A DNA stretch of 42,080 nucleotides from a virus. This document shows positions 2,800 through 42,080 of the stretch, piece after piece (within the stretch, counting starts at the first letter, position 1; every line of letters begins with the position of its first letter). Under the pieces are notes generated by a model, which made no database searches, was not told the origin of the DNA, and worked only from the letters and a program-made list of their open reading frames with translations. The position numbers were made by a program, and so were the translations under genes. Where the stretch lies: the IMG/VR virus record IMGVR_UViG_3300049479_000132, positions 1 to 42,080 of that record; one strand, 5' to 3'.

Positions 2800-4226
2800 T
2801 GGGAAAGCGCAAAGACCTTGAAGATGCTCTGAAGGCAACCAAGATGCAGCTGGCTATAGAGCACCTGCGATCCTTTGAAGCGGCCAAGCTGAGCCGGCGT
2901 ACGGACAACTGGCTGACCAGTAACAACGGCCCGAATGCTGACCTGCGGCTGTCGCTGCAGCGGATGGTCGCCAGGCATCAGGACCTGGTGGATTCAGACC
3001 CGTGGGCCAGTAAGGCGGTTGCAGTGGTCGTCAATAACTGGGTGGGCGATGGCATTGCCGGTGCGCCTGTTGGTGCGACGCGACGGTATGCCGATGGCTA
3101 CCGCGAGTGGGCAGAGAGTACGGACTGCGACTGGACCGGTCAGCACAACTTCTACGGGCTGCAGTCGCTGATTGCTCGAACGGTAGCGGTGCGCGGCAGC
3201 TGCCTGGTGCGACGGCGGTTTGATGAAAGCCAGCTGGCGCGTGGCCTCAGTCCGCTGCAGCTGCAGGTGATGGAGCCGGACTACCTGGACTTGAGCAAGG
3301 ACGATGGCGCCAAGATCAGGTTTGGCAAGCAGTACACCGATAGCGGGAAGCTGGAAGGGTATTGGATCCGGCTGTCGCATCCGGGTGAAAGCGACTGGAC
3401 CGGATCTATCAGGGTGCAAAGCGAGTTTGTGAATGCTTCAGAGATCTGCCATGTGTTTGACGTACGCCGGCCTGGCCAGGCCACTGGCGTACCGTTTGGC
3501 GTGAGTGCGCTGCTGAAGCTGCGAGACGTAAGCGACCGTGACGCGGCGCAGCTGCTGAAGGACAAGCTGGCGGCGTGCTTCATGGCATTCGTGTCAGATG
3601 CTGACGCTGACGCTGTGGCCAGTGGTACGGAGCTTCTCGACACGCTGGAGCCTGGCGTGATTGAGAATCTGCCACCTGGTAAGTCGATCACGTTTGCGCA
3701 GCCGCCTACGTCAGGCGACTACGTGGCCAATCAGAAGTACCACCTGCTGAGCATTGCGCAGGCGTATGAGATCACGTATGAAGCGCTGACTGGCGATCTG
3801 GGCAACGTCAACTTCTCTAGTGGCCGGATGGGTTGGATGGAGATGCGCCGCGCTGTTGCCCGCTGGCGCTGGGGCATCATGATCCCGCAGCTGCTCAACC
3901 GCGTCGCTGGCTGGTATCGAGACGCTGCAGCAATGTCAAACACGGGCCGTGCTACCGCACGGTTTGAGTGGACACCGCCGATCACCTGGCTGGTAGATCC
4001 GGCCCGCGAGATCCCGGCTTACGTCGATGCAGTGCGTGCTGGCTTCATGAGCTTGTCCGAGGTGCAGCGGATGCTCGGGTACGTGCCCGAGCTGGTGATC
4101 CAGGAGCTTGGCGCTGATATGGATCGCGCAAGGGCTGCAGGGTTGAAATTGGATGTAGACCTAGCATCAACAACTGGCACTGTTCGGCCGATGCCTATGG
4201 ATGCAAATGCACAGTCCATAGCCTGA
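2799..4226 (+). CDS. Portal protein (lambda gpB family)
   Basis: A 475-residue protein of the lambda portal family, forming the dodecameric ring through which DNA enters and leaves the capsid. Recognisable stretches are the N-terminal SRRTDNW...DLVDSDPWASKAVAVVVNNWVGDG, the FDVRRPGQATGVPFGVSALLKLRD segment, and the ITYEALTGDLGNVNFSSGRMGWMEM segment near residue 330, typical of gpB portals. Length is slightly under lambda gpB. I chose the ATG at 2799 over the adjacent GTG at 2796; it overlaps the upstream stop. A fused protease/capsid gene follows 4 bp later. Confidence 0.95.
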   Translation: MGKRKDLEDALKATKMQLAIEHLRSFEAAKLSRRTDNWLTSNNGPNADLRLSLQRMVARHQDLVDSDPWASKAVAVVVNNWVGDGIAGAPVGATRRYADGYREWAESTDCDWTGQHNFYGLQSLIARTVAVRGSCLVRRRFDESQLARGLSPLQLQVMEPDYLDLSKDDGAKIRFGKQYTDSGKLEGYWIRLSHPGESDWTGSIRVQSEFVNASEICHVFDVRRPGQATGVPFGVSALLKLRDVSDRDAAQLLKDKLAACFMAFVSDADADAVASGTELLDTLEPGVIENLPPGKSITFAQPPTSGDYVANQKYHLLSIAQAYEITYEALTGDLGNVNFSSGRMGWMEMRRAVARWRWGIMIPQLLNRVAGWYRDAAAMSNTGRATARFEWTPPITWLVDPAREIPAYVDAVRAGFMSLSEVQRMLGYVPELVIQELGADMDRARAAGLKLDVDLASTTGTVRPMPMDANAQSIA

Positions 4227-20122: not shown

Positions 20123-21073
20123 CTACGCCGCAAACAAGCTCAGCTGCTCCGTCACCCCCATCGGCTCCACCGGCCTGATTACCGGCCGCTTTGATGGCAC
20201 CACATCCCTAATCATCTGCATCGCCTGCAGCTGCTGTTGCAGATACCGCAGCCGGCCATCAACACGTGCCGGTTTCATCCCAAGCTGCGTAGCAATCTCA
20301 GAGCGCTCCACCGCTGGACCATCCAATCCCCACGCCATCGCCAGCAACATCTGATCACGGCTTGGCAACGTCGCCATCAGCTCGCGCAGCTGCTCGGCCT
20401 GCTGGTACCGCTCGTCCTGGGCTTCATACTCTTCAGGCGTTGAATCCCAACAGGCCACCACATCACCTAGCTCTAGCCCGTCGTCACTGATCACCTGATC
20501 CAGGCTGGCAACAGGCCTAGCGTTCACCAGTAGCTGATCCATCACCCGCTCAGACACCCCAAGCTCTGCAGCGATCTCATCCTGCGTCGGCTCACGCCCC
20601 AGCTCCATCGCCAGCCGTCTGCGGATTGGACCGAGCTTCCCAAGGTGCTGGCTGTGGCTGCCGGGAATCGCCACCAGCCTGGTGTGATGATCAGCCCAGT
20701 GACCTACCGCCTGACGGATCCACCAGTAGGCGTAGGTGCTGAACCGATACCCCCTGGTGGGATCGAACCGTTCTACCGCTCGGATCAATCCCTCGTTGGC
20801 GGCCTGCACCAGATCATCAATGCTGTGGTCCTTGGCCATGCGGTGGCAGTGCTTTGACACATACGCCACCGCAAGCCGTAGGTTTCCCTTCACAAACCTA
20901 TCTTTCGCCCGCTTGCCGCGACGTTTGATGCCAGGCGGGCAACTATCTGGAAATCCCGGATGGTTCAGCCAAGCTTGTACCTGATTGCCCAGCTCGATCT
21001 CCTCAGCAGGCGTGAGCAGCGGGATGCGGCCAATCTGATCAAGCCACCAACTCAGTCCAGATGGCGGTGCCAT
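20123..21073 (-). CDS. Sigma-70 factor ending in a clamp-binding motif
   Basis: A 316-residue primary/group-2-type sigma factor directing RNA polymerase to phage promoters. Region 1.2 is at ~1-35 (IPLLTPAEEIELGNQVQAWL), region 2 at ~55-120 (NLRLAVAYVSKHC, DLVQAANEGLIRAVERFDP, RGYRFSTYAYWWIRQAV), region 3 at ~130-190 and a divergent region 4 at ~230-280 (RSEIATQLGMKPARVDGRLRYL). After region 4 an extra ~30-residue tail ends TEQLSLFAA. QLSLF equals the consensus bacterial sliding-clamp-binding pentapeptide, a feature I do not expect in ordinary sigma factors. It forms an operon with a second sigma factor 4 bp upstream. Confidence 0.92.
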   Translation of the reverse strand: MAPPSGLSWWLDQIGRIPLLTPAEEIELGNQVQAWLNHPGFPDSCPPGIKRRGKRAKDRFVKGNLRLAVAYVSKHCHRMAKDHSIDDLVQAANEGLIRAVERFDPTRGYRFSTYAYWWIRQAVGHWADHHTRLVAIPGSHSQHLGKLGPIRRRLAMELGREPTQDEIAAELGVSERVMDQLLVNARPVASLDQVISDDGLELGDVVACWDSTPEEYEAQDERYQQAEQLRELMATLPSRDQMLLAMAWGLDGPAVERSEIATQLGMKPARVDGRLRYLQQQLQAMQMIRDVVPSKRPVIRPVEPMGVTEQLSLFAA

Positions 21074-21077
21074 GGCA

Positions 21078-21965
21078 TCACGCGGCGCAGTTGAGTTGAT
21101 TGCGCATCCGCATCAATGCTCTTCGTTCACGCTGACGGATTCGCTCACGGCTCACGCCAAGCGATGCACCAATCGCTCGTAACGTGGTCGGCTTGCCTTG
21201 CAGGTACCGCTCACGGATGATCATCCGATCCATCGGGTCCAGCTGCTGCAGGATTGCAACGCTGCTTTGCAGTAGGTCGCCGTGCTCATCCATGAAGCTG
21301 CTGTCTGTAGCTTCAGCAGCGACCTGATCTAGGTACGTGGACGCCTCGCTGCCACGGTTACCGCTGTCGCTGCGCAGGTTCTGATCCAGGCTGATCGCCG
21401 GTTGCGCATGAGCCAGCGTCGCTTTCAGCGTTTCCATGTTGCAGCCGACATGCTCAGCAATCTCAGCTAGCTGCGGCTTCCGGCCGGTCTTCATGACCTG
21501 CTCGTCGCAATAGATGGATGCCTTTCGCAATAAGGTCAGGTTGTGGCACGGGAGGCGGATCATCCGCGCCTGGCTCTCAATCGCCCTGTTGATGCTCTGC
21601 CGTATCCAGTTGAACGCGTAGGTGCTGAACTTGTACCCACGTGAGGCGTCGAACTTGGTGATGGCCCGCTGCAGGCCAATCAATCCCTCCTGCACCAGGT
21701 CCTCAACGGTGAGGTGTGGCTCGGCACGCTTGGTATGGCGCTTGGCAATCAGCACCACCAGTCGAATGTTGGACAGGAAGAACCGGTCCCATGCCCGCTT
21801 GCCACGGCGCTGGATCGCTCGCTGTTTGGCCGTGGGCGTGGCCAGGTCCTTAATCGCCAGCCAGGCCTGAACGTCGCGGCTCAGCGTGATCTCCTGTTCA
21901 GTCGTCAGCAGCGGGTAGGCGCGGCTTTGCTGCATCAACCAGTCGAGTGGTTCGGCCATGGGCAT
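21078..21965 (-). CDS. Second sigma-70 factor
   Basis: A ~295-residue sigma factor with region 1.2 (YPLLTTEQEITLSRDVQAWL), region 2 (NIRLVVLIAKRH, DLVQEGLIGLQRAITKFD, RGYKFSTYAFNWIRQSI), region 3 and a canonical region 4 (LRAIGASLGVSRERIRQRERRALMRMRNQL). Region 4 is much more typical than in the neighbour sigma, so this protein probably recognises a more standard -35. I place the start at ATG 21965 (or 21959); a longer frame to 22106 is open but its extra residues look non-coding and would cover a dyad operator. It is the first gene of a two-sigma operon, under the dyad at 21988. Confidence 0.92.
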   Translation of the reverse strand: MPMAEPLDWLMQQSRAYPLLTTEQEITLSRDVQAWLAIKDLATPTAKQRAIQRRGKRAWDRFFLSNIRLVVLIAKRHTKRAEPHLTVEDLVQEGLIGLQRAITKFDASRGYKFSTYAFNWIRQSINRAIESQARMIRLPCHNLTLLRKASIYCDEQVMKTGRKPQLAEIAEHVGCNMETLKATLAHAQPAISLDQNLRSDSGNRGSEASTYLDQVAAEATDSSFMDEHGDLLQSSVAILQQLDPMDRMIIRERYLQGKPTTLRAIGASLGVSRERIRQRERRALMRMRNQLNCAA

Positions 21966-21987
21966 CCGTCGATCGGCTGCACCATAG

Positions 21988-22005
21988 CGGTGCGGATGCA
22001 CATTG
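21988..22005. promoter_or_regulatory. Dyad operator site 3, upstream of sigma operon
   Basis: CGGTGCGGA|TGCACATTG matches the operator consensus strongly in both halves (core TGCG-GATG-CACA). It lies 22 bp upstream of the sigma operon start and 124 bp upstream of the divergent RHH gene, so it may control both transcripts. Confidence 0.65.
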
Positions 22006-22129
22006 CCACCGCTTTGCCGCAGATCCGTGTCTCCGTGTTGACGCGAGCCTGTGCCCGTGGCCACGGTTGTGGGGTGGACCGGCGGTGCGTCAACACCCCG
22101 GCCCATGACCGATCCATTGCTCTGGACCG

Positions 22130-23560: not shown

Positions 23561-23705
23561 GCGGCCGAAGCTCATGACGCTCCGCGAAGCGTTGCTGTCA
23601 CGGTTTAAGAGCTACGAGGCCGAGGTTCTATCGGGTCGCCATGAACCCCTACCGCCACGGCCCGCAGAACAGCCTGAAATATCACACGCTGTTCGTCTGT
23701 CGTAG
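23544..23705 (+). CDS. Possible small ORF overlapping the recombinase end
   Basis: A 53-residue frame from ATG 23544 (MAASAERPKLMTLREALLSR...) overlaps the end of the membrane protein gene and about 100 bp of the convergent recombinase gene. The helix LMTLREALLSRFKSYEAEVL looks protein-like. The long antisense overlap makes it uncertain; it could be the true end of the plus-strand operon or chance. Confidence 0.3.
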   Translation: MAASAERPKLMTLREALLSRFKSYEAEVLSGRHEPLPPRPAEQPEISHAVRLS

Positions 23706-36897: not shown

Positions 36898-39417
36898 ATG
36901 CGCTCCGCCCTAGACCAAGCCTCCGGGCGTTGGCCGGAGCTCTTGATCGCGCTCGCCCATCTGTCCCCAGACCAGCTCACCGACAAGCACCAACCCTGCC
37001 CCGCCTGTGGTGGCACCGACCGCTACCGCTGGGACCGCGATGACGGCCCCGGCGGCTGGTACTGCAATCAATGCGGCGGCAAAGACCACGCTGGTGGTGC
37101 CGGCTCCGGCATGGACCTGCTCACCCGCGTCACCGGCTGGGACTTCAAGCAGGCCGTTGCACGCATCCAGCAGCACCTCGGCATCGATACCGCCGCACCC
37201 ATCCCCGAGCCTCCAACAGCTGGCGCTGAGCACGTCTGGCGATACACCGACACCTTCTACGTCTGCCGCTTCCCAGGCAAACGCATCCGACCGCTCACCT
37301 ACGACGGCACCACCTGGCGGTGGAAGTCACCCGCCAAGCCACGCCCCCTCTACTGGGCACGCCGCAAAGCCGGTGCTCCAGTCCTGATCGCGGAAGGCGA
37401 GAAAGCCGCCGACGCTGCTGCCACCCTGTTTCCCGATCACGCCATCTGCACCTGGCCTGGTGGTACCAGCAACGTCCAGCACGCCGACTGGAGCGCCCTG
37501 CGTGGCTGCACCGTCACCATCTGGCCAGACGCTGATGACGTCGGCCGCAAGGCTGCTGCTCAGCTCGCACGCATCCTCCTAGGCCTCAACTGCACCGTGC
37601 AGGTGGTCAACATCCCCGATGGCGCACCACAAGGTTGGGACGCGGCTGATGCACTTGCTGAAAGCTGGACGCCAGCGCAGGCCGCCAGGCTCGTTGAGCG
37701 GTTTGGCAAGGCCGTGGAGCTGCCAGCGGAGCCGGAGCCAGAGCCAGCAGCAGAGCCGGGCCCTACGCCAGCTGCTGCACCTGCAGCCACGGCGCCCTTC
37801 GTTTGCCTGGGCTTCGATGGTGAGGATTTCTTCTACCTGCCACATTCCACCGGCCAGGTCACACGCATCAGGCGCGGGCAGCACACCGGTACGCCGCTCG
37901 TATCCCTAGCGCCCATCAGCTACTGGGAATCCATCTACCCATCCAAGACCGGCGTCAACTGGCCAGCAGCTGCATCAGGCCTCTTCCAGAAGCAAGCCGC
38001 CATCGGTGTCTTCGACCCGGATCGCATCCGTGGTCGTGGTGCATGGCTCGACGATGGCCGCGTGGTCTTCCACCTCGGTGATCGCCTGATCGTTGATGGC
38101 AGCGCTCACAGCGTCCTGCAGCCACCTCCTACCCGCTTCTTCTACGAGCACTCTCGTCACCTCGACGGCCCCAGCAATGCACCGCTCAGCGATGGTGAAG
38201 CCCTCCAGATTTCAACCATTGCCGAGCGCTTCCCATGGGAGGTGCCAGCATCGGCACACTTCCTCACCGGCTGGATTGTCCTAGCGCCTGTCTGCGGTGC
38301 CCTCAACTGGCGGCCGCACATCTGGGTGACAGGTGGCGCTGGCACCGGCAAGACCACCATCCTCAAGACCTTCATGCGGCCGCTCATGGGCGGCGTGCTC
38401 CAGACCGCTACCGGTGGCACCACAGAGCCTGGTCTGCGGGGCATCCTCAAGTCCGACGCCATACCCGTCGTCTTCGACGAGTTCGAGCAGAACGAAGCCA
38501 AAGACAAGGCCGTGGTGCAGAACGTGCTCCAGCTGGCACGCATCGCCTCATCAGAAGGCGGAAAGATCTACAAGGGCCTACCCACAGGCGGCGCCAATGG
38601 CTACGAGATCCGCAGCATGTTCTGCGTCTCCTCCATCAACGTCTCCCTGATCAACAAGGCCGACATTGACCGCTTCTGCGTCCTGGGCCTGCGGAAGCAG
38701 CCAATGGACAAGAACGAGTGGCTGGACTTCGAGCGGCAGATCCTCGCCGTCGCCACCGTTGACAACGGCCGCGCCCTGATCGCTCGCACCCTGTCGCAGC
38801 TGCCGACCATCGCACAGAACGCTCGCACCCTCGCACAGGCCCTTGGCCGGCGTTTCGGCCAGCGCTTTGGTGATCAGCACGGCACCCTGCTGGCCGGCGC
38901 CTGGAGCCTCGAAGCCAACGGCGGTGGCGTGCTCAGCATCGAAGACGCAGACCAGTGGATCGCCTCGATGAACTGGGACCATCAGCAGCACGATGCCAGC
39001 GACGCTGATGAGCTCAAATGCCGCGACACGATCCTGCAGCAGATCGTGCGCTATGGCGGTGGCCTAGACGCCTCGCTGGGCGAGATGGTGCAGTCCGTCG
39101 CCACACAGCAGTCGCTGGGCGCGACCCTTTGGGATCAGCTGGTGCCGATCCTTGGCCGCTATGGCCTGAAGGTGTTCCGCGACGGCCAGAAGCTCCCCGA
39201 TGGTGAGCAGGCAGCAGGTCACTTCCTGGCGGTCGCCAATGGCAATGCGCAGCTTGACACGCTGCTCAGGAGCACCCCATGGGGCAATGGCGCCCACCGC
39301 TCGGCATTACGACGCATCAGCGGAGCACTCACACCGGCCAAACCGACCCACTTCGCCGGCATCGGCGCGAAACGGTCCACGGTGATACCAATTCCGGCCG
39401 ACGACCTGGCCGCGTAA
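36898..39417 (+). CDS. Primase-helicase (zinc finger, Toprim, AAA-like)
   Basis: An 839-residue replication protein. Residues 34-59 carry a CHC2-like zinc site (CPAC ... CNQC). Toprim motifs follow: EGEKA at 166-170 and WPDADD at 209-214. A Pro/Glu repeat linker (~277-299) leads to the helicase half: Walker A GGAGTGKT at 479-486, Walker B VVFDEFE near 522 and a sensor-like MFCVSSINVSL. It should open the origin and prime synthesis; no DNA polymerase is encoded, so the host enzyme is used. It is followed by the candidate origin and preceded by an RHH gene. Confidence 0.92.
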   Translation: MRSALDQASGRWPELLIALAHLSPDQLTDKHQPCPACGGTDRYRWDRDDGPGGWYCNQCGGKDHAGGAGSGMDLLTRVTGWDFKQAVARIQQHLGIDTAAPIPEPPTAGAEHVWRYTDTFYVCRFPGKRIRPLTYDGTTWRWKSPAKPRPLYWARRKAGAPVLIAEGEKAADAAATLFPDHAICTWPGGTSNVQHADWSALRGCTVTIWPDADDVGRKAAAQLARILLGLNCTVQVVNIPDGAPQGWDAADALAESWTPAQAARLVERFGKAVELPAEPEPEPAAEPGPTPAAAPAATAPFVCLGFDGEDFFYLPHSTGQVTRIRRGQHTGTPLVSLAPISYWESIYPSKTGVNWPAAASGLFQKQAAIGVFDPDRIRGRGAWLDDGRVVFHLGDRLIVDGSAHSVLQPPPTRFFYEHSRHLDGPSNAPLSDGEALQISTIAERFPWEVPASAHFLTGWIVLAPVCGALNWRPHIWVTGGAGTGKTTILKTFMRPLMGGVLQTATGGTTEPGLRGILKSDAIPVVFDEFEQNEAKDKAVVQNVLQLARIASSEGGKIYKGLPTGGANGYEIRSMFCVSSINVSLINKADIDRFCVLGLRKQPMDKNEWLDFERQILAVATVDNGRALIARTLSQLPTIAQNARTLAQALGRRFGQRFGDQHGTLLAGAWSLEANGGGVLSIEDADQWIASMNWDHQQHDASDADELKCRDTILQQIVRYGGGLDASLGEMVQSVATQQSLGATLWDQLVPILGRYGLKVFRDGQKLPDGEQAAGHFLAVANGNAQLDTLLRSTPWGNGAHRSALRRISGALTPAKPTHFAGIGAKRSTVIPIPADDLAA

Positions 39418-39996: not shown

Positions 39997-40066
39997 TGTC
40001 AGCCACCGCAATGGCTCAGCCCTGGTGGAGCAGCCTGCACCATGCGCCCCTGCACTGCCCCGGTGC

Positions 40067-40084
40067 GCTTTCACATCCGCATTG
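40067..40084. promoter_or_regulatory. Dyad operator site 12, upstream of the RNA locus
   Basis: On the minus strand CAATGCGGA|TGTGAAAGC; the left half is a perfect consensus, the right half is degenerate. The 27-bp minus-strand stretch from CTAGC at 40088 matches those at 30266 and 36653. It lies just before the structured RNA element. Confidence 0.55.
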
Positions 40085-40099
40085 CTAGGGTTAAGCCAC

Positions 40100-40231
40100 A
40101 GGGCCTCTAGGCTGGCCCTGCCGGGTCGGTCCTACCCGCAAGGATGGACGCGGTGGTGGTGCCCCGAGGAGTGCCACCTGGAACCGCACTGGAGGCCTGG
40201 TAGGGAGAGGGCTGGCTTCGGCTGGCCCTTT
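40100..40231 (+). ncRNA. Candidate structured RNA, c4-like, upstream of antirepressor
   Basis: A closing stem joins GGCCTC (40102-40107) to GAGGCC (40192-40197). Inside are GGGT/ACCC (40123-40137) and a two-part stem, GCGGT with ACCGC plus GGTGG with CCACC. It ends at an intrinsic terminator (40208-40231). No open frame explains it. Position directly upstream of an antirepressor gene matches phage P1/P22 c4 RNA, which represses ant translation. CTGCCGG (40118-40124) and GCACTG (40186-40191) are complementary to adjacent leader segments CCGGCAG and CAGTGC (40368-40380). The identification is an inference. Confidence 0.45.
40208..40231 (+). terminator. Intrinsic terminator with a UUCG tetraloop
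   Basis: GGGCTGGC-TTCG-GCTGGCCC (40209-40228) forms an 8-bp stem, with two G-U pairs, capped by a C(UUCG)G tetraloop, one of the most stable loops known, and is followed by TTT. It would end a transcript running through 40100-40200. Confidence 0.7.
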
Positions 40232-40253
40232 CCTGCATCTGGCGCTTGGCAAA

Positions 40254-40276
40254 GGGTGTCAGTTGAACTGACACCC
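40254..40276. promoter_or_regulatory. Perfect 11-bp-arm dyad upstream of antirepressor
   Basis: GGGTGTCAGTT (40254-40264) and AACTGACACCC (40266-40276) are perfectly complementary around a single G. Preceded by GCAAA, as is the next dyad. Odd-centred perfect palindromes of this size are typical repressor operators; there is no T-run for a terminator. Confidence 0.65.
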
Positions 40277-40293
40277 CTGCGTTACACCCATTG

Positions 40294-40324
40294 CAAAGGG
40301 TCGGAATTGAAATCCGATCCTTTG
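40294..40324. promoter_or_regulatory. Second dyad adjoining the antirepressor promoter
   Basis: CAAAGGGTCGGA (40294-40305) and TCCGATCCTTTG (40313-40324) pair over 12 positions with one G-T, around a 7-bp spacer. It shares the leading GCAAAGGGT with the first dyad and ends 4 bp before the -35 box. It could be a repressor or activator site, or a leader hairpin. Confidence 0.65.
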
Positions 40325-40328
40325 GCTC

Positions 40329-40359
40329 TTGACACGCTGCACCTTGCTGTGCTTATGCT
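40329..40359 (+). promoter_or_regulatory. Sigma-70-like promoter for the antirepressor
   Basis: A consensus -35 TTGACA (40329-40334) and a -10 TATGCT (40354-40359) are spaced by 19 bp, a little long. The predicted start is near 40366, giving a ~40-nt leader before the GTG at 40406. This is the clearest standard promoter in the window. Confidence 0.55.
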
Positions 40360-40405
40360 GAAGGGGTCCGGCAGCAGTGCTGGATAGTTCCTCGACTGAA
40401 TTGAA

Positions 40406-41143
40406 GTGACCCGATCCTTTGATCGCGTTTGCCGCTGCTGCGGCACGCCCTTCATCGCGTTCAACGCAACTGCCAAGTGGTGCAGCACCCGTTGCTCCAT
40501 GCGCGCATTCCAGCGCCGCCGTCGCGGCGCTCCTGAAGCCGATCACGGTGTGTTGATCCCCCCGGCTGTAGTGCAGCCCGTTGTATTCGCTGACGACGAC
40601 CTGCCCGCCGCCTGGAGGGAGCATCAGGAGGTGGCCGCTCTCGCGCCTTTTGCCTACCAAGGCCATCAAGTGCGAGTGACCACCGACGAGCACGGCGTGA
40701 CCTGGTTCGTGGCAGCCGACGTGTGCGATGCGCTTGATCTTGGCAATACCTGGATGGCCCTTGATCGCCTCGACGATGACGAGAAGGGCGTCAGCTCTAT
40801 CCCAACCCCTGGTGGCCAGCAGTCCATGACCACCGTCAACGAGCCCGGCCTCTACTCCCTCATCCTCGGCAGCCGTAAACCCGAGGCCAAGGCCTTCAAG
40901 CGCTGGGTCACCCATGAAGTCCTGCCCGCTATTCGACGCACCGGGAGCTACTCCACAGCCCCCGCTGCACCCACCCTCACCCCAGGTATCCACGTCGTCG
41001 CACGCAGCCAACGCCAAGCCAGCTGGCTATGGGCTGAAGCCGTTGAACGCCACGTCGGCGCAGCTCTCATGCTCGACATCGCTCACGGCCCTCGTACCCA
41101 ATCTCAACCCTCCTTCCAGCTGCATCTCCTGCCCACCACCTGA
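40406..41143 (+). CDS. BRO-N antirepressor with N-terminal zinc finger
   Basis: A 245-residue protein from a GTG. Residues ~9-32 have CRCCGTPF ... WCSTRC, a small zinc-binding motif. The BRO-N domain spans ~82-170: FAYQGHQVRVTTDEHGVTWFVAADVCDALDLGN...ALDRLDDDEKG...VNEPGLYSLILGSRKPEAKAFKRWVTHEVLPAIRRTGSY. The C-terminal ~70 residues are of unknown fold. Phage BRO-N proteins are typically antirepressors (Ant-type) that switch lysogens to lytic growth. Upstream lie a structured RNA, two dyads and a promoter, suggesting tight control at more than one level. Confidence 0.9.
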   Translation: MTRSFDRVCRCCGTPFIAFNATAKWCSTRCSMRAFQRRRRGAPEADHGVLIPPAVVQPVVFADDDLPAAWREHQEVAALAPFAYQGHQVRVTTDEHGVTWFVAADVCDALDLGNTWMALDRLDDDEKGVSSIPTPGGQQSMTTVNEPGLYSLILGSRKPEAKAFKRWVTHEVLPAIRRTGSYSTAPAAPTLTPGIHVVARSQRQASWLWAEAVERHVGAALMLDIAHGPRTQSQPSFQLHLLPTT

Positions 41144-42044: not shown

Positions 42045-42080
42045 CCTACACCAAGTGCGGGTCCCTCCGACGGGGGGGGG
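42045..42080. other. Right-edge non-coding tail with G-run
   Basis: After the gpZ-like gene, 36 bp remain: a short stretch with GGGTCCCTCCGACG, then a run of eight or nine G. It may be part of a packaging site region or simply a contig end; no gene fits. The G-run is also typical of assembly or sequencing ends. Confidence 0.4.

Follow-up and report, generated by a model that had tools for sequence, protein, structure and literature searches.

In phage P22, the cis-antisense transcript sar overlaps its target region and controls the translation of ant. In phages P1 and P7, a structured antisense RNA, C4, lies directly upstream of the antirepressor operon and carries a short segment complementary to the leader, and the heteroimmunity of the two phages is due to specificity alleles of C4 (PMC12197685). 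The C4 RNA of P1 combines two recognition segments with a long closing stem and is released by RNase P from a precursor transcript that it shares with ant (PMC5320573). In Acinetobacter baumannii, C4-derived sRNAs matching the Rfam C4 family form large chromosomal families (PMC5320573).

A locus of this kind was analyzed in a 42-kb viral contig (IMG/VR record IMGVR_UViG_3300049479_000132; its whole length of 42,080 nt is referred to as the window), where an earlier note had described a c4-like antisense RNA controlling an antirepressor. This main idea appears well supported, because covariation involving five alleles was found between the RNA and the leader, the RNA seems to possess its own -10 element and terminator, the target is placed where the mRNA is predicted to begin, and the arrangement persists across swapped antirepressor domains; the second contact, the closing stem, the argument from segment order, and the membership in the C4 family were not supported. 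The locus probably encodes a trans-acting antisense RNA that would block a BRO-N antirepressor by pairing with the loop of its leader, keeping the prophage dormant.

By its logic and gene order, which are those of P1 c4-icd-ant, the locus is best described as an analogue of c4, and membership in the C4 family is not supported. As in P1 and P7, the structured RNA is located upstream of an antirepressor-type gene, encoding a BRO-N protein (PF02498) in the window and a KilA-N protein (PF04383) in relatives, and specificity alleles are common to both systems. The same logic, the P1 gene order, and the same kind of target gene would also fit true homology with the Rfam C4 RNA (RF01695; family threshold, 45 bits) after strong divergence, but no match to this family was obtained in the window at the gathering score or at E-values up to 5, or in the relatives at E-values up to 10 (one MAG gave chance-level matches elsewhere only), whereas the same search scored P1 at 68.8 bits. 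Moreover, the conserved structure differs from the C4 architecture of a long closing stem, a UUCG-type hairpin, and a second hairpin with a recognition loop: the RNA has other stems, with a 5-bp closing stem and a single covarying segment, which differs from that of C4 in place and order, is located 3' of the inner arm, and has as its target a hairpin loop at the mRNA 5' end. Homology with C4 is thus unlikely. A 16-bit match to Rfam BASRCII26 was discarded, as it reflected just the UUCG hairpin.

In contrast to the processed C4 of P1, the RNA appears from its sequence to have a promoter and a terminator of its own. The A. baumannii sRNAs likewise make up a C4-like family in which the recognition loops vary, but here the RNA and its cognate leader occur together in each phage. 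Antisense control of an ant-type gene would be shared with sar of P22; however, the RNA and its target here share a strand without overlapping.

The window is very likely derived from a temperate phage of freshwater picocyanobacteria, since it contains a serine-integrase-like gene (between positions 23605 and 24927) and a terminase sharing 79% identity with its counterpart in the freshwater Synechococcus phage S-LBS1, which by terminase is the closest phage in culture, and since relatives of the RNA locus are present in MAGs labelled Synechococcaceae and uncultured cyanobacterium. DNA similarity searches against phage records gave only chance matches of 23-29 nt for the window and no match for one relative, and no copy of the RNA was present in S-LBS1 when it was checked directly. 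The primase-helicase gene of the window ends at position 39417, and the contig itself ends in a G run (42073 to 42080) that looks like a sequencing or assembly artefact.

Predicted small RNA and its relatives

Relatives were gathered from loci with a gene for the primase or the BRO protein and from contigs containing a 15-mer of the RNA core (CTGCCGGGTCGGTCC). The 15-mer was found in 96 contigs, about two thirds of which were chance occurrences and were left out. This gave 30 distinct loci in which both the RNA and the leader are complete, mostly from IMG/VR contigs, with cyanobacterial MAGs in addition; as they were collected by the RNA 15-mer, they are related to one another. Their comparison revealed an RNA family with a common fold, a covarying pairing between the RNA and the leader, and the persistence of both across swapped antirepressor domains.

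A -10-like element of the small RNA, TAGGCT (40108 to 40113, plus strand), follows the pattern TAnnnT in all 30 loci, and its distance to the sequence GCCGGG is invariably 6 nt. On account of this fixed spacing, the RNA most likely starts at G40120. Together with the match to covariance model R1, the relatives, and the fold, this defines a putative c4-like antisense RNA between positions 40120 and 40235 on the plus strand, with a three-helix core and a terminator hairpin at the 3' end. Model R1, for which the window served as one training sequence, matched positions 40114 to 40204 (90.8 bits, E-value of 2.7e-22). The predicted folding energy of 141 nt was -84.1 kcal/mol, compared with -66.7 ± 3.7 kcal/mol for shuffled sequences (z = -4.7; 0 of 200 shuffles).

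The closing stem is formed by GCCGG (40120 to 40124) and CCTGG(T) (40197 to 40201), which are paired in 95% of the alignment cells of the 30 sequences. It is followed by helix 1, a hairpin of the form GTCGGTCC-loop-GGATGGAC (40125 to 40149), paired in 100% of cells with G-C/G-U and U-A/U-G variation, and by helix 2 (40150-40154/40183-40187), which surrounds the variable helix 3 (40155-40161/40172-40178), the arm extending from 40150 to 40187. Double-sided changes were observed at six of the seven pairs of helix 3. This architecture, consisting of a 5-bp closing stem, a hairpin with a 9-nt loop, and the helix 2/3 arm, is conserved. A hairpin with a TTCG loop and a short T run (40207 to 40235, plus strand) is the probable terminator of the small RNA, in agreement with the UUCG-loop terminator proposed earlier; a hairpin recurs at this position in the relatives. 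The generic terminator scan of the window did not call this hairpin, and its T run is poor.

On the alignment of the 30 sequences (A1), a structure made up of the leader hairpin, the helix between RNA and leader, and four helices of the RNA had 95.1% of its cells paired, and 97 cells carried double-sided changes, compared with 29 ± 6 in shuffled alignments. When the structure was slid along the alignment, pairing dropped to 33-46%. The multibranched RNA of the earlier note is retained in terms of its strong fold, but not its closing stem, GGCCTC/GAGGCC: GGCCTC overlaps the invariant TAnnnT element at 40108-40113, upstream of the predicted start, and is for this reason probably not transcribed.

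A covariance-model search of 399 genomes of the order yielded only two further convincing matches, both without a leader, and two doubtful ones (L352 and L341). The convincing matches, L350 (328 to 418, 49.8 bits) and L351 (15 to 112, 41.4 bits), are from cyanobacterial genomes, where the RNA relatives precede other small genes; their recognition alleles are ACCG/ATCG, and no matching leader hairpin was found in the downstream sequence that was read.

Pairing between the RNA and the antirepressor leader

The antirepressor mRNA is predicted to open, almost from its first nucleotide, with a leader hairpin (40367 to 40384, plus strand; loop AGCAGT at 40373-40378), which is paired in 97% of cells and shows double-sided changes in four of its six pairs among the 30 sequences. 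It ends approximately 20 nt before the start codon, and the distance between the -10 element and the hairpin core is 10-11 nt in all 30 loci. The motifs on which the earlier note had based its proposal were all located as described (CTGCCGG at 40118-40124, GCACTG at 40186-40191, CCGGCAG at 40368-40374, and CAGTGC at 40375-40380). In the window, GCACTG, the recognition segment b', is complementary to CAGTGC (plus strand), which comprises part of the loop and the next bases of the leader hairpin; covariation and duplex energies mark this sequence as the putative target site of the small RNA.

The variable core of the recognition segment (40188 to 40191) covaries with the leader loop (40375 to 40378). 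The two are paired in 89% of cells, and 25 cells were changed on both sides and none on one side among the 30 loci; the covariation score was 0.51, compared with 0.22 in shuffles and 0.03-0.15 when slid. The complementarity of GCACTG and CAGTGC is thus maintained by compensatory changes involving multiple alleles. Five RNA/leader allele pairs were found (CTG/CAG in 7 loci, TCG/CGA in 12, CCG/AGG in 7, TCC/GGA in 3, and ACG/GTC in 1; n = 30), and mixed combinations did not occur in any of the 30 loci. The single ACG locus (L081) read ACG/AGT in the first register and ACG/GTC in the alignment, with two Watson-Crick pairs either way. The paired core is short (4-6 nt), CCG/AGG leaves a G.A mismatch, and TCC/GGA loses an A-U pair.

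Allele matching gave 82 of 90 possible pairs, compared with a mean of 56.9 (sd 3.1) and a maximum of 72 in 100,000 permutations. As the permutation ignores relatedness, a tree was built without the pairing columns. The tree implied 13 allele changes in the RNA and 13 in the leader, with states agreeing in every row, although 13 is a rough figure since the tree is short and poorly supported (three starred branches). Two pairs of near-identical loci, L189/L204 and L134/L140, differ in their matched alleles, and the window and L002 provide a further agreeing example on the tree. Based on the near-identical pairs, it is very likely that several paired allele changes occurred independently. The predicted duplex energy was -8.2 kcal/mol with the own leader and -5.0 kcal/mol with non-cognate leaders, and the own leader was better in 30 of 30 loci, a preference that partly restates the covariation.

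Six-base matches are individually common, and 344 nt of GC-rich DNA folds readily, so that a chance complementarity next to an ordinary terminator, with nothing regulatory, might be imagined. The covariation in 30 loci and the z-score of the fold contradict this reading, which we regard as having a negligible probability.

The earlier note had included a second contact, in which CTGCCGG (segment a') would also pair with the leader at CCGGCAG, giving a two-segment mechanism as in P1 and P22. These sequences can pair in 95.7% of cells, compared with 18-59% when slid. However, no double-sided change was found and shuffles reached the same values, in a test that is weak because the RNA side is constant partly through the collection of loci by the RNA core. 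Of the two complementary segments, GCACTG/CAGTGC is preserved in relatives by compensatory change, and CTGCCGG/CCGGCAG shows no covariation. Structural grounds also speak against CTGCCGG as a leader contact, since it sits in the closing stem of the RNA itself and its first two bases precede the predicted start, while the leader arm CCGGCAG shows covariation with the 3' arm of the same hairpin (helix 6). Nor does the order of the segments fit, as had been suggested: the RNA segments and their adjacent targets run 5' to 3' in the same order, which is impossible for a single antiparallel duplex, whereas in P1 the order of the recognition segments is reversed relative to the targets, as such a duplex needs. 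A mechanism using both segments is accordingly very unlikely.

Antirepressor-type gene, locus arrangement, and proposed control

The gene directly downstream of the leader (40406 to 41143, plus strand) encodes an N-terminal zinc-ribbon-like part and a BRO-N domain (PF02498, E-value of 2.6e-22), confirming the BRO-N gene noted previously. Its start is probably GTG at 40406, which is aligned with the ATG of relatives, and its product is taken to be an antirepressor from knowledge of the family. The promoter-like element of this gene consists of TTGACA (40329 to 40334) and TATGCT (40354 to 40359) on the plus strand. The strong promoter noted earlier upstream of the gene is supported insofar as the element and its 19-nt spacer are conserved in 11 of 11 type I loci, but it was not called by a generic promoter scan with a spacer of 16-18 nt. 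Two tandem sigma-70-type genes are present on the minus strand of the window (20123 to 21073 and 21078 to 22106), and one sigma-70-type gene is also found in S-LBS1; the tandem genes might act at promoters with a spacer of the unusual length of 19 nt.

The loci fall into two arrangements. In type I (11 loci including the window), a TTGAC-19 nt-TATGCT/TAAGCT promoter lies between the RNA and the leader. In type II (19 loci), the leader follows close behind the RNA hairpin, some tens of nucleotides from the RNA, and in the loci read it is followed by a small ORF of about 60 amino acids and a KilA-N gene. The type II order of RNA, target, small ORF, and KilA-N gene corresponds to c4 - a2,b2 - icd - ant of P1. 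The small ORF (MKTLAMPAFPGGSPFAS...; e.g., L130, L132, and L134) is conserved at the position of icd, and no match was found for it in a Pfam search. The downstream gene is of the BRO-N type in the window, L001, and L002, and of the KilA-N type (PF04383) in L081, L090, L094, L186, and the type II loci. As the same RNA and target are kept before either gene, the RNA module is, judging from these sequences, independent of the protein it would control.

The same pairing could also operate in cis, with a read-through transcript folding on itself by a long-range kissing contact and thereby governing whether the antirepressor operon is read through or translated, so that no separate small RNA would be needed. 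Covariation alone cannot separate cis from trans, and in type II the RNA lies only some tens of nucleotides from the leader, a stretch in which no TTGAC-19-TATGCT promoter was found. In type I loci, including the window, however, the two are parted by the hairpin terminator, mostly at least one dyad, and the conserved promoter, with 10-11 nt from the end of its -10 element to the core of the target hairpin. Separate transcripts are the simplest explanation of this layout, and control in cis retains a small, though appreciable, probability.

In the favored trans-acting mechanism, we infer that a separate RNA is produced, works in trans, and represses translation or mRNA stability. An RNA of approximately 115 nt, transcribed from its own -10 element and ended at its own terminator, would fold into a closing stem that encloses two hairpin arms, leaving 5'-GCACUG-3' free. 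During lysogeny, this segment would pair with the loop, and the bases after it, of the hairpin with which the antirepressor mRNA begins, at a site 26-31 nt ahead of the start codon. The pairing may block ribosome loading or trigger decay, and by preventing production of the BRO-N antirepressor it would let the prophage stay dormant. Given at least five mutually exclusive recognition cores, the RNA should decide which incoming relatives are silenced, resulting in immunity grouping.

To our knowledge, very little is known about how dormancy is kept or broken in temperate cyanophages. The locus would represent a dormancy switch that can be read from the sequence, with at least five specificity alleles of an antisense RNA and a cognate target for each, and the RNA/leader alleles would predict which phages share immunity. 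A further suggestion from the locus is that c4-type control of antirepressors has more than one origin or has diverged too far for the present RNA model to recognize.

Inverted repeats upstream of and within BRO-N genes

The two long dyads mentioned in the earlier note were found at 40250-40276 (dyad 1, GGGTGTCAGTTGAACTGACACCC core) and 40294-40324 (dyad 2, CAAAGGGTCGGAATTGAAATCCGATCCTTTG), both in the stretch that separates the terminator of the RNA from the promoter of the antirepressor gene. These inverted repeats are near-matches to palindromes that other phages carry within their BRO-N coding sequences, with identities of up to 90-96% over 26-29 nt. The dyads of the BRO-N phages (the window, L001, and L002) belong to one sequence class (GGGTGTC..., GGGTCGG...), and those of the KilA-N phages to other classes, such as CGTTATCGGAAATCCGATAACG; the class thus follows the antirepressor type among a few type I relatives. 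Nearly all type II loci looked at were without dyads. It is a reasonable guess from these few loci that the dyads are operators for the DNA-binding domain of the antirepressor itself.

Taken further, and only tentatively, temperate picocyanophages may possess an independently evolved c4 system in which the three-base RNA allele and the leader loop define immunity groups, the RNA, the leader, and the kind of antirepressor (BRO-N or KilA-N) move as exchangeable modules, and the dyads before the antirepressor promoter act as operators that vary with the antirepressor type.

Most BRO-N genes contain a palindrome at one fixed coding site, between the codons for DDDEK and NESGLY, whose arm sequence is free (e.g., L012 at 3142-3168, L455, L503, and L513); the counterpart in the window (40784 to 40810) is degenerate. 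An open literature search on this intragenic palindrome found no paper. In a non-redundant set of 170 BRO-N genes, collected by protein similarity, the mean inverted repeat score was 7.0, compared with 4.5 in synonymous shuffles and 4.7 and 4.5 in neighbouring windows, and a score of 8 was reached by 38% of the genes, compared with 2% and 0% in the controls. When the right halves were dealt to other BRO-N genes, pairing decreased from 8.42 to 6.55 of 13 (sd 0.13), indicating that the arms co-evolve at the DNA level. The palindrome was rejected as a general operator recurring nearby, as there was no excess of second copies. A.C mispairs (79) exceeded G.U mispairs (28), partly since T-P codons force A.C at the edge, and an mRNA hairpin is therefore unsupported. 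Candidate causes are an operator or the correction of imperfect palindromes by template switching. The complementary codons of the palindrome arms couple residues such as V-D, V-H, R-P, and V-Y.
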